From the NCBI GenBank assembly GCA_947458675.1, contig CANHAW010000016.1, positions 1 through 13,753 of the forward strand: DNA of 13,753 bases, written 5' to 3'. Of the stretch, positions 8,733 to 10,369 are shown one piece after another. Position numbers and translations under genes: made by a program. The notes under the pieces were generated by a model. It ran no database searches and was not told where the DNA came from. It saw nothing but the letters and a program-made list of their open reading frames with translations. The stretch's first letter is position 1. The number at the start of each line of letters is the position of its first letter. Source of the stretch: Beijerinckiaceae bacterium. Its GTDB lineage: Bacteria; Pseudomonadota; Alphaproteobacteria; Rhizobiales; Beijerinckiaceae.

Positions 8733-8912
8733 GCGAACTCATCCTTCGGTTGCTGACTTTGGGGCACCTTATGGGCGGGCTGGCAGGCAGGCAAGCGCCC
8801 GGTCCGGGCCCGGCCGCCCCTTATACGTCTCAGTTTCTGCAATCTATATTGCGCAAGCGGAGATTCGTGTACTATCCATAGCCGAGTTCAAGCCATTTTT
8901 TTGGAGTTTCAA
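8733..8912. promoter_or_regulatory. Divergent intergenic region upstream of the ATPase pair
   Basis: This 180-nt gap must hold the start signals for both the CoA synthetase and the ParA-like gene. It contains a GC-rich palindrome, GCCCGGTCCGGGC (8797-8809), an 8-bp palindrome TTGCGCAA (8849-8856), and TACTAT (8870-8875), a possible -10 for the plus-strand gene. TTGCGC sits 15 nt upstream of that -10, which is short for a sigma-70 spacer. GGAG at 8903-8906 is the ribosome site of the gene starting at 8913. None of these sites is certain. Confidence 0.35.
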
Positions 8913-9626
8913 ATGAAGCCTGCCGTCATTTTGGTCGGTGCCGACAAGGGGGGCGTTGGCAAGACCACGATTTCCCGGGCGGTCCTCGATTATCTCGCAG
9001 CCAAGGGCATTTCCGCCCGCGCCTTCGACACGGAATCGCCGCGCGGCGCCCTTCATCGCTTTCACCCGCACGAGACCAATATCGTCGATATTACGGAAAC
9101 CGCCGACCAGATGAAAATTCTGGATACGCTCTCGGGTTCTTCCGTGCGCGCGACCGTGATCGATGTGCGCGCCGGACAAATGTCGGAAACCTTGCGCGTC
9201 CTTGAGGATGTCGGCTTTCTCGATGCAGTCAAAGACGGCCAGATCACATTCATCGTCGTGCATGTGCTTGGACCCTCGGTTTCCTCATTGGGAGAGATTG
9301 CTGAAATCGCTCCCTTTATGGACGATGCGCATTATTTCCTGGCGAAGAACCACATCAACGACACCACATTTTTTGAATGGGATCCGCAGACCTATGCATC
9401 CTATTTCGGTGACGTGAAATGCGCCGGCGAGATCACAATCCCCAAGCTCGATGAAATGGCTTACGAGCAGGTCGAGCTGAATGGCGTGCCGTTTGCGAGC
9501 TTCATTGCAGGCAAGCAGGGCTCCTTTGTTCTGCGTGGCTATGTGCGCACCTGGTTGCGCAATATCTCGAGCGAGCTCGATGTTATTGGCCTGCACACTC
9601 TGGTTTCGCCCGAATTGCGACGCTGA
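8913..9626 (+). CDS. ParA/MinD/TraL-like P-loop ATPase
   Basis: A 237-residue cytoplasmic ATPase of the deviant Walker A (SIMIBI) class. The P-loop ADKGGVGKTT (10-19) carries both the signature lysine (K12), which in this class reaches across a dimer, and the phosphate-binding lysine (K17). Other visible parts are an acidic residue after strand 2 (FDTES, D39) and a Walker B-like ATVIDVRAG (80-88, D84). No DNA-binding helix-turn-helix, signal peptide or membrane segment is seen, and no parB or centromere is adjacent. The style recalls TraL/MobD-type ATPases more than chromosomal ParA, but I cannot name the family. Start: GGAG is 6 nt upstream of the ATG at 8913; an in-frame TTG at 8901 is less likely. 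The next gene begins 23 nt downstream and encodes a diverged paralogue. Confidence 0.85.
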   Translation: MKPAVILVGADKGGVGKTTISRAVLDYLAAKGISARAFDTESPRGALHRFHPHETNIVDITETADQMKILDTLSGSSVRATVIDVRAGQMSETLRVLEDVGFLDAVKDGQITFIVVHVLGPSVSSLGEIAEIAPFMDDAHYFLAKNHINDTTFFEWDPQTYASYFGDVKCAGEITIPKLDEMAYEQVELNGVPFASFIAGKQGSFVLRGYVRTWLRNISSELDVIGLHTLVSPELRR

Positions 9627-9649
9627 CTGGAAGCGGCAAGGATCGCAGC

Positions 9650-10369
9650 ATGAGCAGGATACCTGCCTATATCGTTTGCTCCCCCTTCGCCCGATGCGGG
9701 TCGACGACGATTGCGCGACTCCTTGCCGATTTCCATCTGCTTGAACAACGCGAGCTGACCCTGTTTGAGACGAACAGCCAATCGCCTGTGCTGGAAAACT
9801 GGTTCCCGGACATCTGCAACGTTGTCGATCTGATGACAACGCGCGGTCAGATGGACCTGTTCGATCAGATGATTTTCGCCGAGCCGCAAACGCGGATCGC
9901 GGAAATATGTTCAGGCTATTACCGCGCGTTTTTCATGCAGGCGCGCGAGATAGGTTTTTTCGAGGAGGCTGAAAGCCGCGGCTATCATCCTGTCATTGTT
10001 TTTGTCAGCAATGGCTCGCATATTTCGGTCGAGGCCATGACGACGCTTCACGCTTTATGGCCGAGCGTCACCAAAGTCGTGGCGATCAATGAAGGGTTGG
10101 TGCGGCTGGGCAAAAATTTGCACGACCATCTCGCCGCTTTTCCGACGGAATTGTCGTTTCAGATTCCAGCGCTTGAGGGCCTTCCGCGCCGCGAATTTGA
10201 GGCGCCCGATTTTTCGATTTCCAATTTCTTCGTCTCGACGCCGCCCGACGACATGTCGCTCGTTGTCCGGGCCGATTTGCGCAATTGGATGCGTCGCGTC
10301 TTCACGCAATTCCACAGTCATGAATTGCGGATGGCATTCGACAATGCGCGCTATTTGATGCGCGCCTGA
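9650..10369 (+). CDS. Degenerate P-loop paralogue of the upstream ATPase (pseudo-ATPase candidate)
   Basis: A 239-residue protein that aligns by eye with the product of the gene just upstream. Its N-terminus has strand-loop-helix form but reads SPFARCGSTT (11-20), so the signature lysine is F13 and the phosphate-binding lysine is S18. The strand-2 acid is E40 (D39 in the partner) and the Walker B acid is E85 (D84). Parallel segments elsewhere include NVVDLMTTRGQMDLFDQM versus NIVDITETADQMKILDTL, and REIGFFEEA versus EDVGFLDAV. The C-termini also match (ADLRNWMRR versus GYVRTWLRN). The frame is intact, so it is not a decaying pseudogene. It probably no longer hydrolyses ATP and may act as a partner or regulator of the first protein; that is inference. 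It ends 2 nt before the convergent atpC stop. Confidence 0.82.
   Translation: MSRIPAYIVCSPFARCGSTTIARLLADFHLLEQRELTLFETNSQSPVLENWFPDICNVVDLMTTRGQMDLFDQMIFAEPQTRIAEICSGYYRAFFMQAREIGFFEEAESRGYHPVIVFVSNGSHISVEAMTTLHALWPSVTKVVAINEGLVRLGKNLHDHLAAFPTELSFQIPALEGLPRREFEAPDFSISNFFVSTPPDDMSLVVRADLRNWMRRVFTQFHSHELRMAFDNARYLMRA

Follow-up and report, generated by a model that had tools for sequence, protein, structure and literature searches.

A tandem of a ParA/MinD-class ATPase and its degenerate paralogue as a candidate switch-plus-accessory module

The contig CANHAW010000016.1 of a Beijerinckiaceae bacterium (assembly GCA_947458675.1) carries, within the stretch of 13,753 nucleotides (nt) analysed here and called the window, two adjacent genes on the same strand: gene A, encoding a ParA/MinD-class ATPase with an intact deviant Walker A motif, and gene B, encoding a paralogue of A with a degenerate P-loop. 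Together they appear to form a small module, not described so far, made up of a switch and an accessory. ParA/MinD ATPases position chromosomes, plasmids, septa, flagella and organelles, and an unrelated partner normally triggers their hydrolysis. As a whole, the best explanation of the data is that A is the switch and B an accessory of A, a reading that we hold tentatively, at somewhat short of an even chance.

An intact and a degenerate member of one ATPase family

The two frames are open, co-directional and separated by 23 nt, and their products align end to end, as had been stated in the original prediction, a note made from the sequence alone. A two-sequence BLASTP comparison gave 20% identity across 239 columns (expect value, E, 8e-10), the A profile scored 56 bits on B and the B profile 72 bits on A, and the predicted models of both proteins have the same fold, that of the ParA/MinD class. 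These data bear out the assignment of the tandem paralogues to the ParA/MinD/TraL class of P-loop proteins, as well as the claim that B has an intact frame and keeps the fold; the possibilities that B lacks a P-loop fold or matches an unrelated family were rejected on its predicted fold. A and B are likely the products of one duplication within their family, a single event being unproven because the MinD outgroups, the second gene of genome G140 and a second Acidovorax gene are placed unsurely, on long branches.

Both proteins lie at the edge of described families. A falls just under two Pfam cut-offs (CbiA, 23.2 versus 25.4 bits; MipZ, 18.6 versus 20.7 bits) and scores at most 18.2 bits on the NCBIfam ParA, TraL and MinD models, whose cut-offs are at least 180; for B, no Pfam or NCBIfam model was reached at its cut-off. 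Four further CbiA-type matches above cut-off are present in the window genome. Single-sequence searches returned 5,523 relatives for A and 19 for B, while a profile of 90 B sequences, for which 7,999 candidates were scored, matched at least 1,143 proteins, the best 120 of which were detailed. Matches by structure comparison include MinD, FlhG/FleN, Cfd1, SRP54-FtsY chains, the nitrogenase Fe protein and Get3/ArsA, and a sequence search of solved structures with A and B gave weak P-loop matches. The best solved-structure match of B, a designed protein (E 0.0017), was not accepted as a relative.

The two families differ sharply in their P-loops. Signature and Walker lysines (xKGGxGK[TS]) are present in 161/161 A proteins, 81/81 bacterial and 80/80 viral. 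In the window, as originally noted, A keeps K12, K17, D39 and D84, and the same positions of B are F13, S18, E40 and E85; we take D39 to be the switch I acid and D84 the Walker B / switch II acid. Among 82 B proteins, the signature position is R (36), H (26), Q (5), S (5), F (3), N (3), L (2), Y (1) or A (1), and the Walker-lysine position K (40), V (30), T (7), A (4) or S (1). Of the changes seen in the window B, the loss of the signature lysine holds for all 82; the others do not, since 40 proteins retain the Walker lysine and the E40 and E85 changes are confined to a few rows that include the window B. Likewise, S18 is not an isolated mutation, as the Walker lysine is absent from 42/82 B proteins, although serine itself occurs in only one of them, within a branch-wide loss.

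We mapped the Walker-lysine state on a B tree built without the P-loop columns. Two changes were needed, and all 42 rows without this lysine fall within one 45-row group (Shimodaira-Hasegawa-like approximate likelihood ratio test, SH-aLRT, 90, not starred), which also contains three lysine-bearing rows (L094, L125 and L129). Named rows without the lysine are mostly Methylocystaceae, Beijerinckiaceae and Rhodoblastus, plus Tepidamorphus, and named lysine-bearing rows are mostly Afipia, Pseudolabrys and other Nitrobacteraceae or Xanthobacteraceae. Most likely, judging from this tree, the ancestral B had lost the signature lysine only, and the Walker lysine was lost afterwards. A basic shift at three positions of B forms a second change alongside this loss: residue 15 is R/K in 42/42 proteins without the Walker lysine (R in 22/40 of those with it), residue 207 is R/K in 40/42 (R in 3/40) and residue 211 is R/K in 40/42 (R in 5/40).

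The linkage of the two genes is conserved, contrary to the possibility that they rarely co-occur in relatives. When 150 relatives were searched with A and B at E 0.001, the same 35 genomes matched both; each query also matches the other protein weakly, and pairs were judged from gene positions. In 32/35, B immediately follows A in the same orientation; in G020 A and B are on two contigs, apparently owing to a contig break, in G111 they are unlinked (see below), and in G140 there is no recognisable B and a divergent second P-loop gene lies upstream of A. In the top-ranked 80 of 495 loci, ordered by their similarity to A, B follows A in 76, with a gap of -4 to 223 nt (median 48.5); the remaining four are L070, at a contig end and with its B on another contig, and L075-L077, without B. 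The B frame is open and of normal length in 72/76 loci. L095 has a stop codon within the frame and L063 (cf. G043) an apparent frameshift, all draft metagenome assemblies, and in L112 and L138 B runs off the contig end. At the level of the order, 23/297 genomes had a match, with up to nine candidates scored per genome: 18 show A then B, G140 and G589 have no recognisable B, and in G599 A lies at a contig end with a B-like gene on another contig, the further exceptions (G111 and G536) being taken up below. At the level of the class, with up to seven candidates scored per genome, A was found in 2/385 genomes. A conserved two-gene unit with a degenerate partner is supported (32/35 genomes, 76/80 loci).

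Two side observations concern the variety of such pairs. In G637 (L247, L252), a second copy of the pair, broken in both genes, stands beside an intact one. In a distant family (L244, 2292-3077, minus strand), a second P-loop protein encoded upstream of A has arginine at both lysine positions (SERGGEGRT).

B as a proposed accessory of A, and the alternatives

In the proposed mechanism, A would be an autonomous ParA/MinD-type nucleotide switch, which its intact motif suggests would dimerize as an ATP-dependent sandwich. B presumably cannot complete a normal sandwich and, in the window lineage, where the Walker lysine is lost, probably cannot hold ATP. With the same fold and no lysine to act in trans, B would be suited to cap A or to tie A to something else: given the linkage of the genes, it would most likely bind the dimer face of A, or the A dimer, and could modulate or direct A, either as a brake on A-A dimers or as an adaptor to whatever A positions. 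We favour such an accessory over an obligate half-active heterodimer; it fits better because A occurs without B, in phages and after one deletion in Methylocystis.

The deletion is seen in L075-L077, three Methylocystis-type loci in which A is followed by a remnant of mid-B and then by a gene reading as an aldo/keto reductase. The best remnant match per locus spans 44-51 nt at 78-86% identity (E 9e-11 to 2e-7), and no B was found elsewhere in these genomes, whose completeness is not given, the single match in each being A itself. Among them, the ratio of nonsynonymous to synonymous substitutions (dN/dS) of A is 0.024-0.065. As to phages, A-like genes with 37-58% identity are carried by the viral loci examined, the best 80 of 125 (L142-L221; stretches of 4.0-12.7 kb), and no B was detected at E 0.01 in 80/80 stretches. 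No relative of B was found in viral contigs by one degenerate pattern, which is not exhaustive, nor in phages or plasmids by tblastn with one Afipia B. Since A stays constrained after the deletion and B is absent from the viral stretches with A, A can function without B.

Several observations weigh against the accessory reading. The loss of B in L075-L077 is probably one event, the genomes being related, and the viral stretches are not whole contigs. B is not always tied to A: the 100% complete genome G536 has B (72659-73327 on C1, 188 bits; L246, L325) and no A, its only match to A (38.8 bits) being B itself, and in G111 A is unlinked to B (95 bits), each being on a contig of its own. Genomes with B only are under-sampled, as loci were ranked by A similarity. 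Finally, half of the B family retains the Walker lysine, so that "no ATP" is untenable for every B, and even the proteins without this lysine retain T/S19 (42/42), D40 (40/42), D85 (37/42) and N147 (41/42), which makes an unusual mode of nucleotide binding possible for them.

A first alternative, possible although unlikely in our view, is that B acts as a ParB-like adaptor to a cargo or surface and stimulates the ATPase of A, its P-loop fold serving as a mere scaffold that leaves the sandwich face of A untouched. No conserved third gene was found beside the pair among open reading frames (ORFs) of at least 90 amino acids (aa) at the 81 loci, a search that did not extend to ParB models, parS, relaxases or smaller genes. 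The basic C-terminal helix (residues 207 and 211) and basic residue 15 of B proteins without the Walker lysine might suit a nucleic-acid or membrane surface. However, most lysine-bearing B proteins lack the basic pair, which argues against a function common to the family, and the phage A proteins have no B nearby.

We consider it rather unlikely that B still binds or hydrolyses nucleotide through an unusual P-loop, in which case "pseudo-ATPase" would be the wrong term. P-loop nucleoside triphosphatases that lose the Walker lysine normally no longer bind phosphate, and this lysine is missing from 42/82 B proteins, including that of the window. On the other side stand the GKT kept in 40/82, the Mg/acid residues largely kept and the one genome with B and no A. 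There is also a parallel in StbB of plasmid R388, which has a serine at the signature position that, as modelling suggests, may stand in for the lysine; in the presence of StbA, conjugation requires this StbB (PMC3098194). A missing signature lysine is thus, by itself, no proof of inactivity.

An A-B heterodimer with a single active site was put forward in the original prediction; as an obligate dimer, in which A needs B as its other half, it has been weakened, and we regard it as doubtful. The tight linkage and conserved gene order are as it would have them, and P-loop heterodimers have precedents in SRP54-FtsY and Cfd1-Nbp35, SRP54-FtsY and Cfd1 chains being among the structural matches. Nevertheless, A is constrained without B in the three related Methylocystis-type genomes and alone in the viral stretches, G536 has B alone, and in none of the 82 B proteins is there a signature lysine to reach across to the ATP of A.

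The pair might instead belong to a host-phage contest, as a patchy host module whose A half is used by phages as a mimic or subverter, which we judge very unlikely. Presence is patchy: the listed genomes of the same genus comprise 25 with A and 20 without it, some others that gave no match being unlisted, and the pair is present or absent beside atpC (see below). In the tree, 18/19 phage rows group beside host A (SH-aLRT 87), and the position of L142 inside host A (SH-aLRT 95) suggests a second phage capture of A without B. In 27/80 viral loci, A is followed within 2.5 kb by a same-strand match to the terminase large subunit; of the four query sequences, three were named by PHROGs and one by its record, and 11 of the 27 matches are at 22-37% identity. 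Such a neighbourhood fits the phage's own DNA handling, the PADLOC 2.0.0 models matched neither A nor B at E 0.1, and the annotated genes that recur beside the pair are metabolic or housekeeping (nitrite/sulfite reductase, aldo/keto reductase, AMP-binding, M48 peptidase). A known defence system as the identity of the pair was rejected, given the lack of a PADLOC match. L223 is likewise among the loci noted for A-like phage genes.

That B is a functionless, decaying duplicate is refuted for the family as a whole and is hardly credible beyond single genomes: B has lost catalytic residues, was deleted in one lineage and is broken in the draft assemblies mentioned above, and its nonsynonymous rate (dN) exceeds that of A in 13/13 related pairs (median ratio about 2.7), but its frame is open and of normal length in 72/76 loci, with two of the other four cut by contig ends, and it is under purifying selection, also in the nine pairs without the Walker lysine. 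By the Nei-Gojobori method, dN/dS in the 13 pairs is 0.025-0.205 for B and 0-0.155 for A (B higher in 10, equal in 1 and lower in 2), with dS near saturation in two or three of them (up to 2.0).

Layout and neighbourhood of the pair

The window genome is 2.18 Mb in size and 77% complete, and the pair lies on its contig C16; coordinates of the features are collected in Table 1. On the 5' side of A lies a divergent AMP-binding acyl-CoA ligase gene (8732-7122, minus strand), and on the 3' side of B a convergent atpC (10773-10372, minus strand), the stop codons of B and atpC being 2 nt apart; both neighbours were named from reading their translations, and Pfam assigned AMP-binding to a neighbour gene at locus L072. 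With neighbours so placed, the two genes probably form a transcription unit of their own. A unit shared with the atp genes was rejected, since atpC is present in only 14/80 loci and is convergent with B in the window.

Table 1. Features of the A-B pair (window positions)
Feature	Position	Strand	Remark
Gene A	8913-9626	+	237-aa ParA/MinD-class ATPase, intact deviant Walker A (GADKGGVGKTT)
Gene A start	ATG at 8913, GGAG at 8903-8906	+	
P-loop of A, residues 9-19	8937-8969	+	
Signature lysine K12 of A	8946-8948	+	
Walker lysine K17 of A	8961-8963	+	
D39 of A	9027-9029	+	D in 161/161 A proteins
D84 of A	9162-9164	+	D in 161/161 A proteins
Gene B	9650-10369	+	239-aa paralogue of A, degenerate P-loop (CSPFARCGSTT), predicted to have the fold of A
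F13 of B (signature-lysine position of A)	9686-9688	+	Lysine in 0/82 B proteins
Residue 15 of B	9692-9694	+	
S18 of B (Walker-lysine position of A)	9701-9703	+	K in 40/82 B proteins
E40 of B	9767-9769	+	D in 80/82, E in 2/82 B proteins
E85 of B	9902-9904	+	D in 77/82, E in 5/82 B proteins
Residue 207 of B	10268-10270	+	
Residue 211 of B	10280-10282	+	

Clusters of ORFs antisense to A and B recur in 75/81 and 55/81 loci, respectively, and were read as by-products rather than genes, as they underlie A and B, whose plus-strand frames show low dN/dS. Apart from these, the next ORF clusters cover at most 20/81 loci.

In the window the pair sits between the AMP-binding gene and atpC, two genes that are adjacent at empty sites. 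Of the 20 genomes of the genus listed as lacking the pair, we checked 11: in five (L306, L307, L310, L311 and L312), atpC adjoins an AMP-binding gene at 0.1-0.2 kb by aligned ends, and in the other six no AMP-binding match was found within the stretch examined (up to 1.5 kb beyond atpC). No remnant of A or B was detected at E 0.01 in any of the 11. The empty site is compatible with loss or gain of the pair.

Comparison with known systems

Literature searches returned no description of the A-B pair among the matches listed, subscription papers and preprints being outside their coverage, and no mention of bll2492/bll2491. A similar arrangement was found on cyanobacterial plasmids, 16 of which were matched at 22-26% identity by tblastn with A. 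In seven stretches, a KGGVGKS protein, its annotation being variously ParA, MobD, AAA family ATPase or hypothetical, is directly followed, as in A-B, by a homologue without the signature lysine (GDARVGKS/GDSRVGKS), and then by a DUF6753-type protein, named so in six and assigned by similarity in L279. From ten stretches, we excluded L285 (no intact pair annotated) and L286 (a transposase in place of the first gene), while L287 contributed its second gene only, its third gene being unnamed; the set is thus L278-L284 and L287. L278 and L283 contain a MobV relaxase gene, in two smaller plasmids (L293 and L294) the ATPase is single and close to a mobC gene, and no mention of DUF6753 was found in the literature search. 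The cyanobacterial tandem differs from A-B in its third gene, in a second protein that retains GKS in 8/8 and in a P-loop one residue shorter than that of B. It is probably a separate duplication, given that the second proteins form one clade (100) apart from B (97) and have the shorter P-loop.

Taken together with the A-B pair, this tandem allows a bolder reading, for which we see perhaps a slim chance: a ParA/MinD ATPase might be governed by its own catalytically dead twin rather than by a ParB/MinE-type partner, asymmetric A-B sandwiches that cannot fire setting the pool of active A-A dimers. Such a design would have arisen at least twice, on Hyphomicrobiales chromosomes and on cyanobacterial plasmids, with phages taking the catalytic half alone. 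If true, a conserved degenerate copy of the ATPase as partner would be a different control principle, and the family supplies a natural series for testing it, from B proteins that keep or lack the Walker lysine to genomes in which B has been deleted or stands alone, and phages that carry A by itself.

Two further plasmids carry related genes. An Acidovorax plasmid (L290, 3959-5508) has a tandem in which neither copy is degenerate, two adjacent ParA-like genes with both lysines in both, in the vicinity of rep and parB-like genes; on a Methylorubrum plasmid (L289, 3959-8259), a related P-loop gene lies near genes for SAVED-domain and DncV-like nucleotidyltransferase proteins and a MobF relaxase.

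MinD, FlhG/FleN, Cfd1, the nitrogenase Fe protein and Get3/ArsA, which work as nucleotide-sandwich dimers, belong to the same P-loop class as A, but A scores well short of the cut-offs of the curated NCBIfam models for MinD, ArsA and Get3. With ParF (the ParA of TP228) and MipZ, identity is 9-16%, and no ParB or centromere was found at the pair, ParB models and parS not having been searched. The DNA-binding residues of MipZ (PMC7229837) could not be mapped onto A without coordinates.

The nearest described kind found is StbB/TraL/MobD (R388 stbABC, RP4 traL, pTF-FC2 mobD). These are ParA-like ATPases, each encoded in a three-gene operon of the leading region of a plasmid; such mobilization operons lie beside a relaxase gene, and one StbB branch has serine at the signature position (PMC3098194). 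The ATPases of this kind have a role in plasmid localization and conjugation. The likeness to A consists in a deviant Walker A ATPase and a weak profile similarity: the TraL model of NCBIfam scores 16.3 bits on A (cut-off 360), and the A profile 22-43 bits on four plasmid MobD/P-loop proteins. The original view that the context points to no known job stands at the chromosomal loci examined and not for the distant plasmid relatives, which lie near mobilization genes. In contrast to StbB/TraL/MobD, the A-B pair has no conserved third gene among ORFs of at least 90 aa, its A is far below the TraL cut-off, and it is chromosomal, with a degenerate paralogue adjacent to the ATPase.
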